Shown: positions 12,561-24,921 of the stretch, piece after piece
Position numbering within the stretch: position 1 is the stretch's first letter
How the letters are laid out: each line of letters opens with the position of its first letter
From: Flavihumibacter fluvii
GTDB taxonomy: Bacteria; Bacteroidota; Bacteroidia; Chitinophagales; Chitinophagaceae
Length of the DNA stretch: 64,000 nt
Reading direction: 5' to 3'
Assembly: GCF_018595675.2 (NCBI RefSeq)
Contig: NZ_CP092333.1
Span: 2,566,001 to 2,630,000 of the forward strand
Made by a program: the position numbers and the translations under genes
The notes under the pieces: model-generated
The model's database searches: none
The model's input: only the letters and a program-made list of their open reading frames with translations
What the model was told of the DNA's origin: nothing

Positions 12561-13154
12561 ATGACTGAATCAGGATTTCAGGCCATACATGCGTCTATTG
12601 TACAACGATTGTCAACAGGATTGGATTCACGTTTAACCTATCACAACCTGGCACATACGCTGGATGTATTGGACCAGTCTTTAAGAATTTCGCTTGCGGA
12701 AAACATTTCTGACCCGCACCAATTATTATTGATCAGGATTGCCGCCCTCTTCCATGATACTGGGTTCTTATTTGAATACAGTGGGCATGAAGCGAGGTCT
12801 TGTGTAATAATGCGGGAAGCACTTAAAGATACTTCCATTACCGAGAAAGAACTGAACCAGATCAGCGGAATGATTATGGCCACAAAAATTCCGCAAAGTC
12901 CGACCAACCTGATGGAACAAATCATCTGTGATGCAGACCTGGACTATCTTGGAAGGGAAGATTTTCCACCCATCAGCAATAATCTTAAACAGGAATTCCT
13001 TGAATATGGTGTAATTAAAAGTGAAGAAGCCTGGGACCCATTACAGATCGGCTTCCTTGAAAAGCACCAGTATTTTACACTAACATCCAATAGAACCCGT
13101 GCACCAAAGAAAAACGAATACCTGGCCATGTTGAAAAAACAAAAAGCCCAATAG
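12561..13154 (+). CDS. HD-domain metal-dependent hydrolase
   Basis: A 197-residue soluble protein with an HD phosphohydrolase fold. Seen: the first His in TYHNLAHT, the HD pair in LFHDTGF, a further His in YSGHEARS and the distal Asp in CDADLDYLG, giving the H...HD...D metal-binding pattern. Its layout is like small predicted Bacteroidota phosphohydrolases; the substrate (nucleotide, cyclic nucleotide or other phosphoester) cannot be read from the sequence. It lies 49 bases after dnaJ and 29 bases before the HEAT-repeat transporter gene on the same strand. No signal peptide is present. Confidence 0.82.
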   Translation: MTESGFQAIHASIVQRLSTGLDSRLTYHNLAHTLDVLDQSLRISLAENISDPHQLLLIRIAALFHDTGFLFEYSGHEARSCVIMREALKDTSITEKELNQISGMIMATKIPQSPTNLMEQIICDADLDYLGREDFPPISNNLKQEFLEYGVIKSEEAWDPLQIGFLEKHQYFTLTSNRTRAPKKNEYLAMLKKQKAQ

Positions 13155-13183
13155 GCCCAACAACATTAAACTGATTACCACAA

Positions 13184-15946
13184 ATGAAATCCAACCAATT
13201 TTGGTTGAAATTACTCAATGTGCACACCAATGAATGGGGTGTGGTACGGAAGTTATTCTGGTTACAGTTTTTCCAGGGGGCCGGTATTACATTCTTTTTC
13301 TCAGCTGAATTCTCCAGATTCCTTGACAAATTTCCGGTTTACCAACTTCCCTGGGTAATGGTGATCGCATCATTTATGCTTTGGATCGCTGGTTTCATCT
13401 ATTCAAAACTGGAACATATTATTCCATTTAAAACCTTCAATATTGCAATGATCGTTTTAATGGCCTTAAGTATGTTAATGGTCAGGGTAGGCAGTAATTA
13501 TTTTTCCGGCGACTGGTTTGATTATGTCAGTTTTGCCTGGTTTTATGTGTTATACCTTCTCAATAATCTTGAATTTTGGGGAATTGCTGCACAGCTCTTC
13601 GATATAAGACAAAGCAAAAGACTATTCGGTGTTGTAAGTGCCGGGGAAATTCCTGCCAAATTTGTTGGGTATACGCTGGCATACTTTATTGTGGGATTTA
13701 CGGGGACATTGAACTTATTATTGATTGGCGTCTTTTGCATGATTTGCTCTATACCTTTTTTTTTACATATTGCGAAAACTGAAGAGGGGGCCTTTAAAAA
13801 TGACCATGGACATGGACACAAACATGTTCATCATGCCCATAAAAACAAGGTTGGCAACCTGGTGTCTAATTATTTCAATAATAAGATCATTTTTCGCATT
13901 GCCCTGATCTCACTATTGTCAACAGCCTGCTTATTCATCGTCAATTATGGGTTTTACGCAAAAGTTAAAGAGGCCTACCATGATGATGTTGAGCTGGCTA
14001 AATTCATTGCCTTTTTCATGGCTATACTCAGGATTGCGGCACTCATTACAAAAATCCTGTTCACAGGAAGACTGGCTACTAACCTGGGTGTACGGAAGTC
14101 ACTTTTTATTATGCCGGTAACGATGATGGTAATGGTGGGTATTATATTGGTAAGTGGTTTCACATCCAATAACGTCCATATCTTGTTTTACCAGTTTGGT
14201 GCCCTTGCCATAGCCGTAGATGTTTTGAAGATATCCATTAATTCCCCGATTCTGCTTGCAGCCATGCAGCCTTTGCCGACCCACGAAAGGTTAAGGGCAC
14301 ATAATATTGTAAAAGGAATAATGGATCCATTTGCAACATTATTTTGCGGGATATTACTCATTTCCCTTTTCTGGATACAGGGTGAAATCAATTTAATCAC
14401 CCTTTGCTATTTTCTGATAATAATTGGCATTATTTGGTTAGTAGGTGTAATAAGGGTAAACAAAGTATACCTTAATATGCTGGTGAATACCATAAGTAGC
14501 AGGTTTTTCAGCCAGGAGGAGTTCACTTTAAATGATCCACAGACCGTCCAGAAAATAAAAGAAAAAATCAATACGGGGACTTACCCGGAAGTACTGAGTA
14601 TTTTACAAATGGTCAGCACCAAACAGAACCCCCTTTCTGCAGAATTATTGGGGAATTTTTTACAACACCCTTCCGGGGAAGTCAGACTGGAAGCAGTTCG
14701 CCTCATTGGGAGCAAACAAATAAATACATTAAAGGATGAATTAAATACTGTACTCATTCATGATTCAAACGAAGCCGTTAAGGGTGAAGCTATCAAAACA
14801 ATTTGCCGGCTTACAGAAAATACTCCTGAATTATTGGCCTATCTCAATCATCCGGATAGTGTCATCCGCCAGGCTGCAATTACTGGTATGTTAAGCAATA
14901 ACAGAGCTGCAAACAAAGAAACCGCTGAGAAGGAACTCCATTTGCTACTTAGAAGTGAACACCCGGAAGAGCGGGATATTGCCCTTAAAATTTTGCAGGA
15001 AGTAAAGGATGATTATGACCATCCCGACCATGCTCTATTAATTGAAAGTAACCATCCTGAAACCCGAAAAAAAGCCATTGATGCTATTGGTAGAGGCGCT
15101 TTGCATGAAAGTCTCGATGCTTTAACCAGGCAATTGGGAAAACAAAACAAGCAAGTGTATAAAGCCTTGCAAAATGCCGGAGAAAAAGCGATTCCTTTTA
15201 TCAAGAATGTCCTGACTATTGAAAAAACAGGAAACAGTACCCGCCACCAGTTGATCAGATTATGTGGAAAAATAGGTGGCAGTAATGCCCATCATTTATT
15301 ACTTCAATTATTACAGGTTAGTCCGGCAGAATCTCCGGTTATTATAAAGGCTTTATACCGAAGCAAATTTGTGGCGGATAAAAAGGATATCAGGGCCTTA
15401 TTGGAGGAATTCTGTAAAGCGTATATCCGTTATGCTGTTGAACTACTGCATATGCAAAAAATATTACCCAAAACAGAAATCCCGGCAACGTTAATTTACA
15501 ATTCCGTACAAATAGAGCTTCTGGAAATAAGGGAAACTTTATTGTGCCTTTTTTCTTTATTATACGACCGGGAACAGATCAGAAAAGTGAGAACCGGACT
15601 CAATGCAAACCAGCGTTCGAGCATTGCCAATGCCATGGAAATTATTGAATTAACCGTAAGAAAGGATATCGGTAAATATTTCAATATCTTATATGAAGAC
15701 GTGCCTCTTGACCGGAAATGTGATGATTTGAAATTCCTTAATGAAGATATTAATTACCAGCAGACCAACCAGGTTCTGAGGCGTATACTGTCGGAACAGC
15801 CGATTGCTTACCAGGACTGGACCAAAGCCTGTTCTATGTATATTAGCAAAAAATACCACCTGGATATTGACCGAAGGTTGCTGGATAAATTCCTGGTTGC
15901 TGATAATCTGATGCTTCAGGAAACTGCAATTTATGCACGGGCATAA
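13184..15946 (+). CDS. MFS/nucleotide-transporter-like membrane protein fused to HEAT repeats
   Basis: A 920-residue protein. Residues 1 to about 440 hold about a dozen hydrophobic segments in a layout like the ATP/ADP translocase (COG3202) and MFS superfamily, interrupted near residue 210 by a His-rich cytoplasmic loop (HGHGHKHVHHAHKNK). From about 465 to 750 the protein is soluble and helical with HEAT-like repeats (LSILQMVSTKQNPL, GEVRLEAVRLIGS, PDSVIRQAAITGML, HPETRKKAIDAIGR). The last 150 residues are helical and unassigned. Known: related proteins in Bacteroidota and Chlamydiae pair NTT-like transporters with HEAT and cyclic-nucleotide-binding parts. Here that last part is a separate gene 11 bases downstream. 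The substrate is unknown; nucleotide transport is only suggested by similarity. Confidence 0.8.
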   Translation: MKSNQFWLKLLNVHTNEWGVVRKLFWLQFFQGAGITFFFSAEFSRFLDKFPVYQLPWVMVIASFMLWIAGFIYSKLEHIIPFKTFNIAMIVLMALSMLMVRVGSNYFSGDWFDYVSFAWFYVLYLLNNLEFWGIAAQLFDIRQSKRLFGVVSAGEIPAKFVGYTLAYFIVGFTGTLNLLLIGVFCMICSIPFFLHIAKTEEGAFKNDHGHGHKHVHHAHKNKVGNLVSNYFNNKIIFRIALISLLSTACLFIVNYGFYAKVKEAYHDDVELAKFIAFFMAILRIAALITKILFTGRLATNLGVRKSLFIMPVTMMVMVGIILVSGFTSNNVHILFYQFGALAIAVDVLKISINSPILLAAMQPLPTHERLRAHNIVKGIMDPFATLFCGILLISLFWIQGEINLITLCYFLIIIGIIWLVGVIRVNKVYLNMLVNTISSRFFSQEEFTLNDPQTVQKIKEKINTGTYPEVLSILQMVSTKQNPLSAELLGNFLQHPSGEVRLEAVRLIGSKQINTLKDELNTVLIHDSNEAVKGEAIKTICRLTENTPELLAYLNHPDSVIRQAAITGMLSNNRAANKETAEKELHLLLRSEHPEERDIALKILQEVKDDYDHPDHALLIESNHPETRKKAIDAIGRGALHESLDALTRQLGKQNKQVYKALQNAGEKAIPFIKNVLTIEKTGNSTRHQLIRLCGKIGGSNAHHLLLQLLQVSPAESPVIIKALYRSKFVADKKDIRALLEEFCKAYIRYAVELLHMQKILPKTEIPATLIYNSVQIELLEIRETLLCLFSLLYDREQIRKVRTGLNANQRSSIANAMEIIELTVRKDIGKYFNILYEDVPLDRKCDDLKFLNEDINYQQTNQVLRRILSEQPIAYQDWTKACSMYISKKYHLDIDRRLLDKFLVADNLMLQETAIYARA

Positions 15947-15957
15947 AAAAAACGAAT

Positions 15958-16413
15958 ATGAATGTGTCTTCTAGCGATAGGTTATTATTAGTTGAGAAAG
16001 TATTGATTCTCAAGTCATTAACTATTTTTAAGGAAACTCCTGAAAACATCCTTGCCGACCTTGCCCCACTGATGCAACAGGAGGATTTTGAGAAAAACAC
16101 CTTATTGTTCCAGGAAGGTGAAATTGGTGACTGTATGTTCATCATCCAATCGGGTGAAATCAGGATCCATAAAGGACAAACCACCCTGGCCGTATTGCGG
16201 GAAAAAGAAGTTTTTGGCGAATTATCCCTTCTTGATGCGGAAACACGATCTGCCAGCGCAACCTGCCAGACGGATTGTGTTTTGTTCCGGATCGACCAGG
16301 AACCCTTTTATGAATTGATCGACTCCCGACCAGAAGTAGCTCGGGGATTCATCAAAATGCTTTGTAAAAGGCTACGTGCACAGAATGAAAAATCTGTTGC
16401 TACAAAAAGTTAG
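15958..16413 (+). CDS. Stand-alone cyclic-nucleotide-binding domain protein
   Basis: A 151-residue protein that is essentially one cNMP-binding domain. Seen: the beta-barrel (LLFQEGEIGDCMFIIQSGEIRIH) and a phosphate-binding cassette FGELSLLDAETRSASA with the Gly-Glu-Leu and Arg expected for cyclic AMP or GMP contact. There is no helix-turn-helix after the domain, so it is not a Crp-type DNA-binding regulator. It starts 11 bases after the HEAT transporter gene, which suggests it senses cyclic nucleotide and acts on that transporter. A class III adenylate cyclase is encoded at 22951-24921, a possible source of ligand. The functional link is inference. Confidence 0.85.
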   Translation: MNVSSSDRLLLVEKVLILKSLTIFKETPENILADLAPLMQQEDFEKNTLLFQEGEIGDCMFIIQSGEIRIHKGQTTLAVLREKEVFGELSLLDAETRSASATCQTDCVLFRIDQEPFYELIDSRPEVARGFIKMLCKRLRAQNEKSVATKS

Positions 16414-16681: not shown

Positions 16682-19600
16682 ATGAAAAAGCTTTACCTCG
16701 GGTTTTTAAAACTGTTGTCGTTTGGAATTTTATTACAGTTAACCCTTGTGTCTTCATTAAAAGCCCAACAACTCAACCGGGCATCCTTTGTGGTTTTTGG
16801 TGTTAACGGCGTGCAGTTTAATTCTTCGAACACCTTGACAGGTGCTGGTTCAGTCGGCAGTAACACTCTTGTAAAATCAACAGGTGGATTAGCATTTCCG
16901 GCTAATATAAATAGTGGCGGAAAAATTGAATTGGGTAATGGCAATAGTGTTGCCGGTAAAACCACCGCGGCTAATGGGGCAACACTCACTGGTAATATTT
17001 TATTTTCCGGGTCATCTGCCATATTCAATGGTGATATTGTTGTAAAAGGTGCCATCAGCATTTCCGGCGCAACAGTGGCATCCTCAGCCAAAATTTACCA
17101 GCCTGCCGGTGCTGCATATGTAGGACCTGCCTCAGCAACAAAGGCTCTCCTCACAGACCAGTTACCGCAGCTGCCGGCAATGCCCACAAATACACCTATT
17201 ACACCCAATACTACAAAGATTAATTCGACCACCAGTAAAGGTCCGGGAACCTATGGTGATGTAACACTTTCCGGTAATAGGACCCTGACATTGACTGGTC
17301 CGGGAACCTATATTTTTAATTCCTTTACACTCAACAATACGAACCAAATCATTTTTGATTTTGGTGGTACAACTTCCGGAAAATTTAACATCTATGTAAA
17401 AGGCACAATGATGCTTGATAAAGTAGGGGCCAGTTATATCGGGTTACCTGCCGGGCAAGCCAATAAAGATGCTGCAGCAAGGATTTATACTGAGGTACAA
17501 GGTGTTGTGGCGACCGGTGCAAGTAGCTTTGTAATTGCAAATGGATCAAGCTCCTCCAGATCTAAATGGCTCGGAACTGTATGGGCGTCAAATGGAAATA
17601 TTACTGTTGGATCCGGTACAGGAAATTCAGATTATACCGGTGCATTATGGAGTGGTAAACAGGTTATTATTAATAGTGGTGTAAATACCATTTATGCACC
17701 ACTCGTTGAAGAATGTATAAACCCTGCTGCCGATGCGGGCCAATCTTTAAATCCAACCATCCCTTGCACCGGACTAACTCCCTCTGTTCAGTTGCAGGGA
17801 AGTTCAACTGGCATTACAAATCCATCATATAGCTGGACAACCGTTAACGGTAATATAGTATCCGGTCAAAATACTCCAACACCAACTGTAACCACTGCTG
17901 GAACCTATGTTTTGGTTGTGAGCAATTCAACTGGCTGTACAGCAACCGCTGAAGTAAAAGTCAAGTCCTGTGTTGATCTTGCTGTTGATGGAAATCCGTT
18001 CAAGGTTGAAACAAAAGTTGATGCCATACTCACCAAACTGATAGGTGACCCTACCTATATAAATACGCCATATCTGTTCACTTTTGATCCAAATAATAAA
18101 AGCAGGATCCTTATTGAAGCAATATTACAGGACAATACACTGGCCACAGCAAATTCAGCATTGATTGAATTGGGTAGTAATGGATTCAGCCAGACATCAA
18201 TTTCAAACAATGATTTGTATTACATCATTACTGGATTCATCCCTATCTCAAACATTCCAAATCTGGAGATTCCGATTTTATTTAATGAAATCCGGGCAGT
18301 AGTGCCGCCCATTGGCCTGGCTGAAACAGGTGGATTATACCGTACCGGTGGGGACAGCGCCATCGGAACCCGCTCTGCAAGGGCAGGTTATGATATTACT
18401 GGTGCACAATACAAATCCAAGGATGGTTCCACCAAAAATATCAAGATAGGTGTCATTTCGGACAGTTATAATAAAAAAGGGGCCGCTGCTAACGATATCG
18501 CAACCGGTGAATTGCCGGCTGTTGTTGAATTGCCTAATGGTGATTTTCCATTCGGTGGCGATAAATCAGATGAAGGCCGGGCCATGATGCAGATTATTCA
18601 TGAACAGGCTCCAGGTGCCAAATTAGCATTCCGGACCGGATTTATATCAGAAGGTGATATGGCTGAAGGAATACGGCAACTCAGGGATGCCGGATGTAAT
18701 ATCATTGTTGATGATATCACTTATGCAACAACTCCATTTTTCCGCGACGGATTAGTTACAAAAGCCATTAAAGAAGTCGTAAAAGACAGTGTTTTGTATT
18801 TTACATCTGCAGGAAATTTTGGCAATAAAGCTTATGAAGGAAAATTCTCCGCGGGTCTTGCAAATGGTGCAGCGGTTCCAATTCCTGGAGTAGTAGCGCC
18901 TCAAAACAACACCCTGCAGCGGATAGAACTCAGCAGGGCCGGCACGTACATGATTATCCTGCAATGGGATGATTTCTTTTATTCCGTAAACGACCCGGGA
19001 GTAACCCAGGGGGCCGTTTATGACCTTGATATATACCTGACTGATTATACCGGTAAGAATATCCTGGGGTATAACAGGATCAATACCGGATCAGATCCGC
19101 TGGAAATTATGCCTTTTACTGTTGCTGATGCAACTACAGTTTACCTGAAAATCGTTAAGGCGTCGGGGCCGGCAGGCAGCGGTGACGTTAGTTATAAATA
19201 TATCATATTCAGGGGTAGCGGCAAGATCCTGGATAACGCCAATGCCAACCCTTCCACAATTATAGGACACGCAAATTCCCAGGAAGCAATGACCGTCGGT
19301 GCTGTTCAATATAACCTGACACCGGCATATGGCGTTGCCAGTAACCTGGTGAAAGTGGAACCATTCTCTTCCTGGGGCGGACCCAGTAATGGTATAGATA
19401 ACAAAAAACCGGATTTCTCAGCACCAGATGGTGTGAACACAAGTGTTTACTTAGGCGACCGCCCTTTGACAGATATCAATGGTGGCGTTTACCTGGATGC
19501 AGAAACAAAACCTGGATTATCTTATAATAATTTCTTTGGAACTTCAGCTGCAGCCCCTCACGCTGCCGGATTAGCTGCTTTGTTACTGGAAACCAGGTTG

Positions 19601-22600
19601 AAATATAATCCAACAAAGCCTGCATTTGGCTATAAGAATATTAAAAATGTTTTCAAATCGACAGCATCAAACATTTTGGATGCGAGTGACGACGCCACAG
19701 GCTTTGATTACAAGAGTGGTTCGGGTTTAATTGATGCTTATAAAGCGCTTTTAACTGAAGCCAATCCAAAACCCCTGATCACTTCCATCAAATCTGTTGA
19801 GACAACCACAACACCTGATGGTAAAGTGCAAATCAATATAGTAGTTGATGGTAATTACCTTGTAACCACCACTTATATTGAAGTAAATGGCGTTCAGGTC
19901 CCCACAACGGTTGACCTTGCAACAAAAACCCTCACCGCAATTATTGAACCATTTACAGGAAATCCAGAAGTAAAAGTTTGTAGTCCATCCATTGCTGCTG
20001 GAGATGGTCAATGTTCCAATTCAATTAACCTTCTTGATCCAACAAGAACAAAGATTACGGTAAGAGCTAAACCATACACAAAAACTTATGGTACGCCATT
20101 GCCTCCGGATGCAAATGCGCCACCATTCCAGTATGAAATATTGATTGGGGATTCCCCAACTGCATATGATCCTTCTCAACCATTACCTGGTGGCTTAACT
20201 TTAATTGACCTTGGATTAGCCAAACCTGGATTACAACCGGGTGATCCGGCCATTTCTACAGTACGTTTAACAACAACAGCAAGCAATACAAGTACAGCAG
20301 GCCAGCCGCAGGTAATACATCCTTCCATTGAAGGCTTTGAGCCAACAATTCCGTTGGAATATGCCAAACTCTATAATTATGTAATTGCAGATGGTGTGTT
20401 GACAGTGGAAAGATTGAAAGTAAATATTACACCTAAGTCACAAACAATCACTTATGGTGAAGAAGTCGGTCTGGTTGAATTTGATTATACTACCCCCGGA
20501 ACTTCTAATGTAGATCCGGCGATATTGCAGGAAATCAAAACTGAACATACCAAATGGATAGCCAACAGTTATGCATTGGTAAAAGGTTTTGATGCCAGCA
20601 GATTAAGCAATTCCAACCTGGCCATGATGATTACAGAAACCGGCTTATTCAATGCTACGAGTGGTGCAACAAGGGCTAATGGTGGTGTTACCCGTGCCAA
20701 TGTGGTGGATGTTTCACCCGAGGCCCTTGACAATTTCTTACAGAACAGGATTTTGTCCAATGGCGGCGTTACACGTGCCAATGGAATTCCATATGATAAT
20801 GCAGCTACAAGGGCTAATGGCGGTATTACAAGGGCTAATGGCGGTATTACAAGAGCCAATACCATTGTGAATGCTGATGCCCTAATCAATGGATTCATCG
20901 TAGTCACCTCAAATGGTGGCGTAACCAGGGCTAATGTATCTGGTGGAGATCCCAATGCAAATGGCGGCGTTACCAGAGCCAATGGTATAACCAGGGCAAA
21001 CTATATCACATTTACAGAGGCAAATGGAATAACCAGGGCCAATGTGGTACTCAACAGTGACGTCAATAAAACTGAATATGCATTCGCTGAACTGGACCAG
21101 ACGGCAGGCAATACCACAACAGTAAACGCCATACCTAACTCAGGTATTGAAAATGGTGTATTAACCAATAGTGGTGGTGATGTGACATTGGTAAACAGTT
21201 CCCTGTTTTCTGCTACATCAAATTCTAATGTTGCAGTATTGGTGGATGATGAAGATGTAAGTAAAGGATATGTAGAAGGCTATGTTTCCATCAATATGGT
21301 AACGGGTCTTAACGCAACAAATGGTACTCCGCATTTAATTATACCTGGTGCATTCCTGCCATTGAATCCGAATTTCGATATCAGTTATGGTACCGGTGAC
21401 CTGGTGGTTAACAAAGCGCCGTTAGCAATTGCAGCAAACACCATAACCAAAATATATGGTGAGCCTGTTGAATTCACAAACACTGTAACTGGGTATTTAT
21501 ATAACCCTGAAACAGATATACAGGATAATACCAGTATCGTTTATCCAAGTGGAATAAGCAACAATGTAACCGCAGTGATTAATTCTATTGTTGTTCCATT
21601 TACCGGACCAATTTACCCGGTAGGCAGTTATACCATCCAGCCAATATTTGGTCCGGTGAACAATTATGTTATTGATCCGCCACAGGGAAGTAATGGTGTT
21701 TTGAACATTACTCCCGCAGAACAAACCATCACCTGGGATAATCCCGCAGCCATAAAATACGGAACCCCATTAAGCAGCATACAACTTAATGCAACTGTGG
21801 CTGGCGTTACAGATGGATCCGATCCAGGTGCACTTACTTATACACCGGCAGCCGGAACATACCTGCAAGCATCAGACGAGCTCCAAAACCTGAAAGTTGA
21901 TGCAGCTGCCACAGCTGATTATACTTCAGCAACTAAAACAGTTTCAATAAAAGTTGATAAGGCAGACCTTACGGTGACCATGGGACAGGCGATCTACTAC
22001 TTTACCCAGGGAAGTTCAGTGCCGGCAATAACATCTAGCATTGCTGGATTAGCTCCGGGAGATGCAGTGAGCAATAACAGCTATGTTACAACTACCGGTG
22101 TTGCTATATCATCTTCAATGCCTGCAGGAGAATATACTATACTGCGCAATATTACCACCAGTAACCTGACCAATTTCAGTAGTTATAATATCCTGAATAC
22201 TGTAGGCTCTACTGCCAAACTGTATGTTAACCCTTCAGGCGGCAACATAAAATCCATCAGGCCTGTTCTTGAATGTATTGAACAAGATGGAACAAACTTC
22301 AGGGCGAAATACAGCTGGCAGAATGCCAATACAGTACCGGTTTATGTACCATTAGGAGACGATAATAAGATTATCCTTTCACCTGGTGCGATAGTATACG
22401 GTGGCACTCCTCCAGAGGTATTCCCTCCTGGTTCCGGTACATTTTATATAACCTTTAATGGAATTAAGATCACCTGGTACATCGCCAGTATTGAAAAGAA
22501 TAAAAAATCTTCTTCATCCAGCGATGCGACCTCTTCCTCAAACAAATGTAATTCTGGCAACCGCATAAACAATCTGGCCAGGGAGACACCTACCGATGTG

Positions 22601-22849
22601 GTAATCAGGGAAACTATTTATCCAAACCCTGCCAACAATCAGGTATTCATTGAAGGAGATTTCAATAAAGTTTCCGAGAAAGATATTATAATTGTTGACG
22701 GTATAGGTCGCCAAATGAAGCCTGCATCTATCCAGAAACTTTCATCCCGGAGAATGCAGATCAATATCAGCAACCTGTCCAGCAGCCAATATTTCATAAA
22801 AGTGAATACCATAACTGGCAAAAAAGTTTATAAGTTTATCAAATTATAA
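16682..22849 (+). CDS. Giant secreted sedolisin-like (S8/S53) protease with MBG domains, TRAN repeats and type A T9SS sorting domain
   Basis: A 2055-residue secreted protein. Order: signal peptide (to about residue 29); a Gly/Ser/Thr-rich beta-helix-like region (30-350); an Ig-like segment (about 355-430); a subtilisin-fold peptidase domain (about 570-1015); several MBG-type repeats from about 1120 on, recognisable by ITYGEE, KIYGEP and IKYGTP; and a C-terminal type A sorting domain (IYPNPANNQVFI to KVYKFIKL). Catalytic candidates: Asp594 in GVISDSYN, an acidic pair at 630-631 in DEGRAMM, Asp677/678 in IIVDDITY and Ser955 in FGTSAAAPHAAG. The usual HGT histidine is missing, so a sedolisin-type Ser-Glu-Asp triad is likely. 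One MBG domain is split by a long TRAN-repeat insertion. Secretion through type IX and extracellular proteolysis are inferred. Confidence 0.88.
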   Translation: MKKLYLGFLKLLSFGILLQLTLVSSLKAQQLNRASFVVFGVNGVQFNSSNTLTGAGSVGSNTLVKSTGGLAFPANINSGGKIELGNGNSVAGKTTAANGATLTGNILFSGSSAIFNGDIVVKGAISISGATVASSAKIYQPAGAAYVGPASATKALLTDQLPQLPAMPTNTPITPNTTKINSTTSKGPGTYGDVTLSGNRTLTLTGPGTYIFNSFTLNNTNQIIFDFGGTTSGKFNIYVKGTMMLDKVGASYIGLPAGQANKDAAARIYTEVQGVVATGASSFVIANGSSSSRSKWLGTVWASNGNITVGSGTGNSDYTGALWSGKQVIINSGVNTIYAPLVEECINPAADAGQSLNPTIPCTGLTPSVQLQGSSTGITNPSYSWTTVNGNIVSGQNTPTPTVTTAGTYVLVVSNSTGCTATAEVKVKSCVDLAVDGNPFKVETKVDAILTKLIGDPTYINTPYLFTFDPNNKSRILIEAILQDNTLATANSALIELGSNGFSQTSISNNDLYYIITGFIPISNIPNLEIPILFNEIRAVVPPIGLAETGGLYRTGGDSAIGTRSARAGYDITGAQYKSKDGSTKNIKIGVISDSYNKKGAAANDIATGELPAVVELPNGDFPFGGDKSDEGRAMMQIIHEQAPGAKLAFRTGFISEGDMAEGIRQLRDAGCNIIVDDITYATTPFFRDGLVTKAIKEVVKDSVLYFTSAGNFGNKAYEGKFSAGLANGAAVPIPGVVAPQNNTLQRIELSRAGTYMIILQWDDFFYSVNDPGVTQGAVYDLDIYLTDYTGKNILGYNRINTGSDPLEIMPFTVADATTVYLKIVKASGPAGSGDVSYKYIIFRGSGKILDNANANPSTIIGHANSQEAMTVGAVQYNLTPAYGVASNLVKVEPFSSWGGPSNGIDNKKPDFSAPDGVNTSVYLGDRPLTDINGGVYLDAETKPGLSYNNFFGTSAAAPHAAGLAALLLETRLKYNPTKPAFGYKNIKNVFKSTASNILDASDDATGFDYKSGSGLIDAYKALLTEANPKPLITSIKSVETTTTPDGKVQINIVVDGNYLVTTTYIEVNGVQVPTTVDLATKTLTAIIEPFTGNPEVKVCSPSIAAGDGQCSNSINLLDPTRTKITVRAKPYTKTYGTPLPPDANAPPFQYEILIGDSPTAYDPSQPLPGGLTLIDLGLAKPGLQPGDPAISTVRLTTTASNTSTAGQPQVIHPSIEGFEPTIPLEYAKLYNYVIADGVLTVERLKVNITPKSQTITYGEEVGLVEFDYTTPGTSNVDPAILQEIKTEHTKWIANSYALVKGFDASRLSNSNLAMMITETGLFNATSGATRANGGVTRANVVDVSPEALDNFLQNRILSNGGVTRANGIPYDNAATRANGGITRANGGITRANTIVNADALINGFIVVTSNGGVTRANVSGGDPNANGGVTRANGITRANYITFTEANGITRANVVLNSDVNKTEYAFAELDQTAGNTTTVNAIPNSGIENGVLTNSGGDVTLVNSSLFSATSNSNVAVLVDDEDVSKGYVEGYVSINMVTGLNATNGTPHLIIPGAFLPLNPNFDISYGTGDLVVNKAPLAIAANTITKIYGEPVEFTNTVTGYLYNPETDIQDNTSIVYPSGISNNVTAVINSIVVPFTGPIYPVGSYTIQPIFGPVNNYVIDPPQGSNGVLNITPAEQTITWDNPAAIKYGTPLSSIQLNATVAGVTDGSDPGALTYTPAAGTYLQASDELQNLKVDAAATADYTSATKTVSIKVDKADLTVTMGQAIYYFTQGSSVPAITSSIAGLAPGDAVSNNSYVTTTGVAISSSMPAGEYTILRNITTSNLTNFSSYNILNTVGSTAKLYVNPSGGNIKSIRPVLECIEQDGTNFRAKYSWQNANTVPVYVPLGDDNKIILSPGAIVYGGTPPEVFPPGSGTFYITFNGIKITWYIASIEKNKKSSSSSDATSSSNKCNSGNRINNLARETPTDVVIRETIYPNPANNQVFIEGDFNKVSEKDIIIVDGIGRQMKPASIQKLSSRRMQINISNLSSSQYFIKVNTITGKKVYKFIKL
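20663..21043 (+). repeat. In-frame TRAN peptide repeat array (NGG[VI]TRAN)
   Basis: Ten copies of the peptide TRAN, mostly as NGGVTRAN or NGGITRAN, lie in residues 1328-1454 of the protease gene. Some are tandem with a seven-residue period; others are separated by 12-25 residues of other sequence. Codons vary between copies (ACAAGGGCTAAT, ACCCGTGCCAAT, ACCAGGGCCAAT), so the repeat is held at protein level rather than being a fresh DNA duplication. It sits inside a roughly 270-residue insertion splitting an MBG domain. Confidence 0.9.
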
Positions 22850-22950: not shown

Positions 22951-24921
22951 ATGAACCGGTTCAGCCCTATAATATTGATTTTGTTGCTGCTGATAATGCT
23001 GAACATTTCTGCCCAAAATCCTGAGGCTGAAAACCTGAAAAAATCATTACTGATACAAAAGGAAGATACCAGCAAGGTCAACCTGCTAAATCAGCTGACA
23101 GCTGCAACTATCCAAACACCCGATGCAATAATTTATGGCAACCAGGCCGTATCTCTGGCTGAAAAACTGAAATACACCAAAGGCAAAGCACTTGCCTTAA
23201 AGAATCTTGGTTTATACAATTTCTACAAAAGTGATTTTGTTCCGGCAGAAGAATATTGGCGCCTTGCTTTAAAAGAATATACTGACCTGAAAGATGAGGT
23301 GGGTAAATCCAATATGCTTAATAACCTGGGGACAATCAATTCCCAAATTGGTAATTCTTCAAAGGCGATGGAATATTACCTGTTAGCGCTGGAATCTGCT
23401 CTTAAAACAACAGATACTGTCAGAATAGCAACTACCCTTAATAATGTGGGTAGCATCTATATGTCCAAGCCAAGTACTTTTGACCTCGCAATAGATTACC
23501 TTAATAAAGGCCTCTTGTTGGCAACCAGGATTAATGATAAAGCAAATATGGGGTTATCATATGTTAACCTGGGAGAAGTTTATTTCCAGGAAGGTAAAGA
23601 TTCTCTAGCCTTCTTTAATTTCTCAAGAGCAACCGAAGTTTTTGATCCATCAGATGAGCTCCTGCCTTATACCCTGAACAGTATAGGTAAGTTATATAAC
23701 CGTCAAGGGCAAACAGAACTTGCCCTTAAATACCATGAAGAAGCTCTTAAAAAAGCGATGAATGCCGGAAGTAAAATAAATATTGCACAATCATCCCTTT
23801 TCATAGCCTATTATTATGAACTCAAGAAGCAACATGATAAAGCTTTGTCATATTTTGAAAAAGCCCGGGCACTAGCCACTGAAATAAGAGCAGCACCCGA
23901 ATTAAAACAAGCTTATTTAGGTTTATCACAAAGTTATTATTCAAAAAACGACTACAAGAACGCATATAAATTTCGTGATCAATCAGCATTGCTAGCTGAT
24001 TCATTATTTACTTTTGCTGCCGATAGCCTTCAGTTAAAATATACTGTTGGCTTGAAGGAAAAACAAATAGATATCCTTACGAAAGACAAGGACCTTAAAG
24101 ACCTTGAACTCAAACGACAGAAAATTGCCAAAAATGCATTGATGGTCGGCCTGGGACTTGTATTCCTGATCATCGGAATTTTATACAGGGATTACCGGCT
24201 GAAAGTAAAAACTAATTATATCCTTGATCATCAGAAAGCAGAAATCGAAAGCCTGTTATTGAACATATTACCCGCTGAAGTTGCGCATGAGTTACAAACA
24301 GAAGGCCATGCAACACCTAAATACTTTGACCATGCTACTGTATTGTTCACCGACTTTAAAGGATTTACCAGAATGGCCGATGCTCTTTCTCCGCAGGAGT
24401 TGGTGGCCGAACTGAATGACTGTTTCATGGCATTTGATGACATCATTGAAAAATATAATCTGGAGAAAATAAAGACAATCGGCGATTCATACATGTGCGC
24501 AGGGGGTATACCGACACCTGATCCAACAGCAACCTTAAAAATGATCGAAGCCAGTTTTGATATTATTGAATATCTCAAGAAATGGAATGAACAAAGAACA
24601 GCGATTGGCTTAAAGCCTTGGGAATTGCGTATTGGCATTCACGTTGGCCCTCTTGTTGCCGGCGTGGTAGGTAAGAAAAAATACGCATATGATATCTGGG
24701 GTAGTACAGTGAATATCGCCAGCCGGATGGAAAGTGCCGGCGAGCCCGGACAGGTGAATATATCTTCAAGTGTTTATGACATAGTAAAGAACCATTATGA
24801 CTGCCAGTACAGGGGTAAAATTTCTGCCAAGAATATTGGTGAGATTGATATGTATTTTGTAACAAAGGCTAAAGAAGTTCCTAAAAACATGGAACTAGCG
24901 AGAGCTGTTTCTGAATCTTGA
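22951..24921 (+). CDS. Membrane-bound TPR adenylate cyclase (class III)
   Basis: A 656-residue protein. Order: signal peptide (1-22), tetratricopeptide repeats in the periplasm (about 30-370), a transmembrane helix near 394-412 (LMVGLGLVFLIIGILY), a short coiled linker and a cytoplasmic class III cyclase domain (about 455-640). Catalytic residues are complete: metal-binding Asp468 (LFTDFKGFT) and Asp512 (KTIGDSYM), adenine-selecting Lys508 and Asp581 (YDIWGSTVN), and transition-state Asn588 and Arg592 (NIASRME). Lys/Asp selectors argue for ATP rather than GTP, so the product is probably cAMP. TPR-cyclase proteins of this build are common in Bacteroidota; the signal sensed is unknown. The 3' end overlaps the convergent VWA gene by 27 bases. 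Confidence 0.92.
   Translation: MNRFSPIILILLLLIMLNISAQNPEAENLKKSLLIQKEDTSKVNLLNQLTAATIQTPDAIIYGNQAVSLAEKLKYTKGKALALKNLGLYNFYKSDFVPAEEYWRLALKEYTDLKDEVGKSNMLNNLGTINSQIGNSSKAMEYYLLALESALKTTDTVRIATTLNNVGSIYMSKPSTFDLAIDYLNKGLLLATRINDKANMGLSYVNLGEVYFQEGKDSLAFFNFSRATEVFDPSDELLPYTLNSIGKLYNRQGQTELALKYHEEALKKAMNAGSKINIAQSSLFIAYYYELKKQHDKALSYFEKARALATEIRAAPELKQAYLGLSQSYYSKNDYKNAYKFRDQSALLADSLFTFAADSLQLKYTVGLKEKQIDILTKDKDLKDLELKRQKIAKNALMVGLGLVFLIIGILYRDYRLKVKTNYILDHQKAEIESLLLNILPAEVAHELQTEGHATPKYFDHATVLFTDFKGFTRMADALSPQELVAELNDCFMAFDDIIEKYNLEKIKTIGDSYMCAGGIPTPDPTATLKMIEASFDIIEYLKKWNEQRTAIGLKPWELRIGIHVGPLVAGVVGKKKYAYDIWGSTVNIASRMESAGEPGQVNISSSVYDIVKNHYDCQYRGKISAKNIGEIDMYFVTKAKEVPKNMELARAVSES

Follow-up and report, generated by a model that had tools for sequence, protein, structure and literature searches.

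The window analyzed here is a 64,000-nucleotide stretch of the Flavihumibacter fluvii genome (RefSeq assembly GCF_018595675.2, contig NZ_CP092333.1, positions 2,566,001 to 2,630,000). It encodes a large subtilase-like protein that carries an array of short repeated peptides and, after a 101-base gap on the same strand, a putative receptor with TPR repeats and a cyclase domain. The features of these two genes, in window positions, are as follows.

16682..22849, + strand: array protein gene, an open reading frame (ORF) of 2055 residues with an S8-like domain, MBG-like domains, the peptide array, and a C-terminal sorting domain of the type IX secretion system (T9SS)
18569..18586, + strand: DEGRAM motif
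19538..19561, + strand: GTSAAAPH, the subtilase Ser motif
20447..21391, + strand: whole insert separating the left (ITYGEE) from the right (NFDISYG) MBG-like half
20663..21043, + strand: peptide array of ten TRAN motifs, consensus NGG[V/I]TRAN, with a unit of 6-7 residues, in several clusters
22616..22840, + strand: Por_Secre_tail, the T9SS sorting domain (residues 1979-2053; Pfam)
22951..24921, + strand: receptor gene, 656 residues, with a signal-like N-terminus, TPR repeats, one transmembrane segment, and a class III cyclase
23311..23313, + strand: receptor Asn121, co-varying with position 6 of the peptide
23323..23325, + strand: receptor Asn125, the first of the invariant TPR asparagines (125, 165, 206, 243)
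24136..24186, + strand: receptor transmembrane segment (ALMVGLGLVFLIIGILY)
24319..24864, + strand: Guanylate_cyc domain of the receptor

An earlier interpretation made from the letters of the window (here the sequence-only reading) had described ten TRAN motifs, mostly NGG[V/I]TRAN, with codon use differing between copies. Both observations were borne out. The motifs lie in frame, with Thr codons from 20669 to 21032 and the final motif ending at 21043, and the copies vary in codon choice (CGT/AGG/AGA and GTT/GTA/ATT/ATA). Tandem Repeats Finder retrieved only a 2.6-copy stretch of the array. A degenerate DNA pattern for G[V/I]TRAN gave nine matches in the 5.0-Mb genome, eight of them in the array and one at C1:4283477, while the reversed control gave none. 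An antisense ORF of 137 residues overlaps the array on the minus strand (20569-20982), probably by chance.

The window protein scored above the Pfam cutoffs for Peptidase_S8 (43.3 bits versus 21.8) and, at its C-terminus, for Por_Secre_tail (E 3.7e-11). The proposal that the array splits an MBG domain fared less evenly: MBG-like flanks were found on the left and right of the insert in a 16-row alignment and Pfam identified MBG_2 in 5/5 scanned relatives, but no MBG family matched the window protein itself. A split MBG domain around the array is plausible by this indirect homology. As for the S8 catalytic triad, the Ser motif is present, and the PDB matches align only parts of the domain, mainly the Ser half, without the His site. 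Aligned by eye, the Glu of DEGRAM presumably occupies the catalytic His site of subtilases, which would give an Asp-Glu-Ser set like that of sedolisins. DEGRAM occurs in 57/61 related ORFs, the remaining four being cut by the end of the available DNA. On sequence grounds, the array proteins from different species are one protein family.

Bacteroidia orthologues carry arrays of other peptides, 6-8 residues long, at the same insert site. A second TRAN array was found only in Flavihumibacter profundi (G013, locus L015; peptide NGGVTRAN), and two further Flavihumibacter congeners have one TRAN each. In the same insert, the other congeners examined carry NGVVRAN (G001), GGTVRSN (G007), GVPFVN (G010), or SLRGIV (G004, G005, G006, G009, and G012), the last taken as LRGIVS with its phase set by the flanking anchor. 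A profile search of 394 Chitinophagaceae genomes retrieved the family in 40, and 39/40 loci fetched from these have their own array of a 6- to 8-residue peptide, such as SKAVAN, SRALVN, IKSVVN, AHAIVN, PAYLVN, EEAIIN, VNGQAVTI, NGQTLTLS, or VNGQLQAL; the arrays of L071 and L073 are degenerate. Copies can all be identical (GYALVN, 16/16; SRAIVN, 17/17), they number up to about 30 per protein, and adjacent copies often have no spacer between them. In a class-level draw, 25/395 genomes matched the array protein at E 1e-8. The six weakest (1e-12 to 1e-8) appear to be regular MBG proteins that lack an array, and the others contributed further peptides (e.g., ARAIVN, GKGLVN, AKVVTN, GRVVTS, NPRVITN, and NGLSVIN). 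A phylum-wide draw retrieved 5/395 genomes at E 1e-15, all already known from the earlier draws. Elsewhere in the array's own genome, TRAN, GYALVN, and SRAIVN were absent except for one stray GITRAN in the window genome; the SRAIVN pattern gave two strays in other genomes. A mobile-element origin was considered and set aside, as no relatives of the L062 array region were found in viral contigs, phages, or plasmids.

Three loci or groups of loci are unusual in themselves. The most perfect array (L155 in G029, GYALVN x16) lies in a frame with two TAA stops and one ORF away from its receptor, possibly a decaying pair. In L094, L101, and L238 (G469, G597), another long repeat, PTGLACWQTATFNT..., follows the array region within one open frame. 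L210 and L211 (G360, G404) have a unit of about 20 residues (GGAVVILNGEEYPVVNS) together with Asp at receptor residue 121, and these arrays are a distinct subtype.

The uniformity of the copies within a protein was measured with a block test, in which blocks were defined by position rather than by motif. The test covered 32 of 47 listed six-residue proteins; nine were left out by hand (layout off the anchors), five lacked a second anchor, and one fell outside the protease alignment, and arrays of 7- and 8-residue units were outside its scope. The first and second clusters of the same protein matched at a mean of 0.85. Orthologous first clusters matched at 0.83 when the proteases were 78-90% identical, decreasing to 0.64 at 70-78%, 0.41 at 60-70%, and 0.33 at 50-60%. 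Cross matches between the first cluster of one protein and the second of another, maximized over an equal number of offsets, were 0.48 at 60-70% and 0.40 at 50-60% protease identity. In total, the own-cluster match exceeded the orthologous match in 273/282 pairs.

This uniformity bears on whether the array is a self-stacking beta structure (a solenoid, meander, or amyloid-like fold) in which identical rungs stack best, with the receptor gene adjacent for other reasons. Left-handed beta-helix hexapeptide proteins (PF00132) share the six-residue period and a hydrophobic-Asn-x-x-small tendency with the arrays, and the array consensus (Asn at position 6 in 40/43, Val at position 5 in 29/43, and a small residue, Ala, Ser, or Thr, at position 3 in 24/43) is near the hexapeptide rule. 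The hexad phase is also kept where the sequence degenerates, with 19/32 proteins having a hexad of at least three mismatches, often GTAxVN-like, between motif hexads. One array matched LbH_EIF2B at E 2e-4, far under the cutoff. No hexapeptide family scored above its curated cutoff in any of the six array proteins scanned, the window protein among them (best, 21.7 bits versus 54, in L065). Known left-handed beta-helix proteins tolerate nonidentical units, with a like measure on those of the same genome giving 0.32 (10 matches, 8 proteins) against 0.85 for the arrays. The three-unit period is not enriched either (lag 3, z -0.7), and lag 1 is depleted (z -2.5). Beta-stacking would also leave unexplained the co-variation with the protein of another gene described below, and we consider it unlikely.

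At the DNA level, the copies are far less alike than their peptides. Between clusters, residues that are shared use the same codon at a frequency of 0.41, against an expectation of 0.37 derived from the codon usage of each gene (11354 comparisons, 39 proteins). Likewise, the four SLRGIV species do not differ at any of the compared array residues (42 codon positions in each pair), against 58-73% identity in the flanks of the two pairs for which these were compared. Because identical peptides are encoded by near-random synonymous codons, it is the peptide itself on which selection acts, as the sequence-only reading had supposed. That reading had also tied a neutral expansion to the absence of repeats from all relatives or to recent identical DNA copies; relatives do carry arrays, mostly of other peptides, and the majority of copies did not arise by recent DNA duplication. 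Near-identical DNA copies are nonetheless over-represented, both among near pairs (37 versus 11.6 expected) and far pairs (91 versus 39.1 expected). As this excess is concentrated in a minority of proteins and loci, some duplication or exchange has occurred but is not what makes the copies alike. Given the near-random codons, the conservation of arrays above their flanks, and the co-variation with the receptor, a neutral repeat expansion has next to no chance of being the explanation. Faster synonymous change within arrays was looked for and not seen: the L047/L048 array codon identity is 0.64 (n = 42), and 50-residue blocks along the gene range from 0.53 to 0.96, mostly 0.7 to 0.9.

When the neighborhoods of 18 array loci were compared, the receptor gene stood out, lying directly downstream on the same strand. 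This arrangement was found in 37/39 testable Chitinophagaceae array loci, with the adjacency of G264 and G344 judged from coordinates, and in 14/22 loci tested in other families. The tally excludes G157, G367, and one G750 locus (C40), which lie at contig ends, as well as G750 C73 and G665 C99. Receptors are 640-752 residues long, except in G264 and G413, where a contig end truncates the gene. Pfam analysis of 11 receptors identified TPR_12 in 11/11, Guanylate_cyc in nine, and HATPase_c in two (G099 and G100), where a histidine-kinase ATPase stands in place of the cyclase behind the same TPR domain. The receptors of G336, G385, G304, G081, and G232 are probably kinases as well, judged by sequence motif only. 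The invariant TPR asparagines were confirmed across 14 aligned receptor ectodomains. In G237, the receptor gene (L201) adjoins a 2297-residue MBG protein that is cut by the contig end and has no array in the available part.

Array protein and receptor also co-occur. The receptor class was defined by a profile of the TPR part, which at a score of at least 329 bits retrieved 49/394 genomes, generic TPR proteins scoring 234 bits or less. Receptors of this class were present in 39/40 genomes with the array-protein family and in 10/354 others (Fisher 2.7e-43). Upstream of the receptors of these 10 genomes, a previously unrecognized array protein was found in 7/7 testable loci, in each case an array-bearing DEGRAM protein, whole or represented by its C-terminal part (NGTLVQ x14 in two, LVQLVN x13 in one, GKAAVN x7 in two, and a VVILN unit x9 in two). 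The testable set leaves aside G194, where no ORF precedes the contig end, and G227 and G374, where repeat-free fragments of 347 and 515 residues are too short to judge. No array was found upstream of related TPR genes outside the class (0/8; control G033 was too short), and none lies upstream of the window genome's second TPR protein, a nonclass protein scoring 217 bits (G000:C1:3876318-3877442). Two genomes have two array-receptor pairs each, with different peptides and different receptor residues at position 121: GKAIFS/Lys and SRALVN/Asn in G079, and GRVVTS/Ser and PRVITN/Asn in G664. The gene pairing, the prediction test, and these two-pair genomes are independent of the co-variation statistics that follow.

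Co-variation was assessed by Mantel tests on 37 of the 43 receptor-array pairs, those with six-residue units; G193, G237, and G382 had no array-map entry at that time and were not included. Motif similarity correlated with the identity of the TPR ectodomain given the protease and both flanks (partial r 0.41, p 0.001). In the same model, the partial correlations with the protease (0.02), the upstream flank (0.04), and the downstream flank (-0.09) were not significant, although the flanks equal the TPR domain in divergence. Restricting the analysis to cyclase-type receptors (30 loci) gave a partial r of 0.48 for the TPR domain and -0.21 for the cyclase domain, and thinning of near relatives (28 loci) gave 0.35 for the TPR domain (p 0.002). 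Thus, the peptide follows the TPR domain, which belongs to another protein, more closely than the protease or flanks of its own.

These correlations help to discriminate among the three roles put forward in the sequence-only reading: flexible spacer, binding motif, and self-processing site. A binding motif fits best, since the peptide co-varies with the TPR domain of the adjacent receptor. The spacer is not supported, because a spacer would need no identical copies in separate clusters that track the receptor encoded by another gene. If the repeats were instead cut sites of the protein's own protease domain, that domain would be available in cis, DEGRAM being present in 57/61 ORFs. However, motif similarity shows no correlation with protease similarity when the TPR receptor is controlled for (partial r 0.02-0.05, p 0.27-0.38), most motif positions vary among species, and a Glu appears to stand at the expected catalytic His site. 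We therefore regard self-processing as very improbable. In sum, the sequence-only reading was right about selection and included the fitting role; its spacer and self-processing roles found no support, and the central finding, the adjacent receptor gene, escaped it.

At the level of single residues, receptor residue 121 was the strongest of 345 scored columns. In the discovery set, the residue agreed with the peptide in 37/37 loci: all 30 loci with a unit-final Asn have Asn121, and the seven loci whose peptide has Ser or Ala have Thr, Leu, Lys, or Ser. Position 6 and residue 121 correlated with r 0.97, which was reached in 0/300 family-wise permutations. Among held-out loci (n = 26), Asn121 accompanied 22/25 Asn-type peptides, and G193 (GRALVS) has Arg, as expected. 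Taken together, the rule that Asn-type peptides go with Asn121 holds in 60/63 loci (table [[52,3],[0,8]]). These include G029, G367, G495, G750, and G769, where the receptor is not directly downstream or adjacency was not established, and exclude G237 (without a visible array), G597 (array truncated at the contig end, motif unclear), and G729b (not array linked). Six-residue units by themselves gave [[43,3],[0,8]] (n = 54, Fisher 1.6e-7), and removal of the five nonadjacent or unproven loci and the nine 8-residue loci gave [[39,2],[0,8]]. On a receptor tree built without column 121, 1/20000 simulations was as strong as the 63 loci, and a Pagel-type likelihood ratio of 22.3 was obtained (p 1.7e-4). 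Several non-Asn receptors cluster in the same region of the tree, so independent switches are few, perhaps three to five on visual inspection. The invariant Asn125, which recurs in later TPRs, follows residue 121 by one helical turn. In other TPR proteins, Asn ladders of this kind grip the backbone of the peptide, which we treat as a lead only. A candidate pairing of peptide position 2 with residue 272 reached r 0.53 in the discovery set.

We therefore consider it likely that the array and the TPR receptor encoded downstream are a cognate pair of multicopy peptide ligand and receptor, with binding and release of the peptide inferred. Several observations weigh against this. No receptor lies immediately downstream in 2/39 loci within the family (G334b, and G029, where one ORF intervenes) and in 8/22 loci outside it. 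At the thresholds used, G334b, G443b, G664b, G665b, G583, and G789a have no receptor on that contig. In G495 the receptor is upstream instead, in G769 a weaker one (258 bits) lies within three genes, and G612a directly precedes a second array gene, which the receptor follows. In G237 (L079), conversely, there is a receptor and no array in the available part of its neighbor, which runs off the contig. Exceptions to the residue-121 rule are G029, whose array match contains two stops, and G360 and G404, with their unit of about 20 residues. Column 121 was chosen from 345, and only one held-out locus (G193) has a non-Asn peptide; nine 8-residue peptides, for which position 6 is undefined, contain Asn and were counted as Asn-type. 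The unit-final Asn is the sole near-constant residue of the arrays (40/43 consensus motifs). A strong discovery-set link between peptide position 5 and receptor residue 135 was not replicated in the held-out loci (Fisher p 1.0). Shared ancestry makes Mantel tests liberal, and each species is represented by one genome. Finally, structure prediction of the window insert gave a predicted local distance difference test score of 32 with a two-row alignment and 42 with the single sequence, both too low for use. As to the loci without a receptor on the contig, G443, G664, G665, and G789 have one beside another array locus of the same genome, and no receptor was found in the G583 genome at E 1e-60.

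Upstream of the array gene lie HD-like, HEAT-repeat, and cNMP-binding genes (window positions 12561-16413), the last two of which are as follows.

13184..15946, + strand: HEAT-repeat gene, 920 residues, conserved beside the cNMP-binding gene
15958..16413, + strand: upstream gene, 151 residues, with a cNMP_binding domain

Homologues of both were found near the array in 11/18 loci, the cNMP-binding gene within three genes of it. A possible role of the cNMP-binding protein is that of a cyclic AMP (cAMP) effector.

These elements suggest the following mechanism. The subtilase-like carrier would be secreted by the T9SS and would present the peptide ligand as multiple copies, to raise dose or avidity. 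The TPR domain of the receptor encoded directly downstream, predicted to be periplasmic, would recognize the array peptide by direct binding. Signal would then pass inward through the cyclase in the window or a histidine kinase in some relatives; in the window, the cNMP-binding protein encoded upstream may read the cAMP made by the receptor. We propose that every copy must fit one pocket, so that copies are identical within a protein, and that ligand and receptor drift jointly, so that the peptide differs among species.

The least certain part is the form in which the peptide is sensed. Short peptides may be cut out of the array and act as diffusible pheromones, which we judge to be close to an even chance, if slightly under it. 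Alternatively, the receptor may sense the intact array during secretion, acting as a sensor of secretion status rather than of peptides from other cells. T9SS cargo should cross the periplasm, the predicted site of the TPR domain, before export, and the array copies often abut without spacers, as such a sensor would allow. A self-monitor has no obvious need for species-specific drift or for up to about 30 copies, however, and two pairs with different peptides are possible in one genome. We hold the secretion sensor to be a real possibility that falls somewhat short of probable. Porins pass molecules of about the size of a six-residue peptide, so both a diffusible signal and an intact-array sensor are possible. 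The fullest version of the ligand-receptor proposal is a Bacteroidota-wide, undescribed pheromone system in which a T9SS-exported, protease-like carrier of up to about 30 copies releases species-specific peptides of 6-8 residues, and a TPR-transmembrane cyclase or kinase cognate to them reads the signal. Each species would thereby have a private channel, and some genomes several parallel ones. This version is offered tentatively, as one that may well not hold in full.

The closest known counterpart is RRNPP peptide quorum sensing (Rap-Phr, PlcR-PapR, and others), which pairs peptides with TPR receptors in Gram-positive Firmicutes (PMC10075063, as far as the parts consulted describe it). As in that system, the gene for the secreted source of the peptide adjoins that for a TPR receptor, and there are many private peptide variants. 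According to the same parts of that source, the RRNPP propeptide has 10-100 residues and the receptor is intracellular, with 250-500 residues (PMC10075063), whereas here the peptide is repeated inside a 2055-residue, T9SS-tailed, protease-like protein and the predicted transmembrane cyclase or kinase has 640-752 residues and occurs in Bacteroidota. The array system thus falls outside RRNPP in propeptide size, receptor size, and predicted receptor location. In RRNPP the mature peptide binds the TPR domain; here the peptide co-varies with that domain.

Several near-identical peptide copies per precursor are also known from the Schizosaccharomyces pombe P-factor (map2), and strains differ widely in both P-factor and its receptor Mam2, reminiscent of the peptide and receptor variation described here (PMC6342294, on the portions consulted). 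The P-factor system, unlike the array system, is eukaryotic with a G protein-coupled receptor-type receptor. Fungal pheromone precursors have processing sites between copies, whereas no processing site is known for the arrays, for which no cleavage-site search was made. In architecture and secretion tail, the array protein resembles T9SS-secreted S8 peptidases with MBG domains, for which no peptide array or receptor pairing was found in the open-access literature searched. That literature likewise gave no Bacteroidota counterpart of the array-receptor system, subscription papers being outside the search. One candidate, PMC8754138, was set aside as not relevant, since in the parts consulted adenylate cyclase appears only as a two-hybrid tool and the TPRs are those of PorW.

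If the pairing is right, a ligand-receptor system would be added to a major phylum, Bacteroidota, and a ligand assigned to its receptor-type cyclases. It would also provide a large natural library of co-evolved peptide-receptor pairs for which a specificity residue (121) has already been nominated. A species-variable peptide within a protease-like secreted protein, together with a membrane receptor that appears to co-evolve with it, suggests an undescribed private signaling system.

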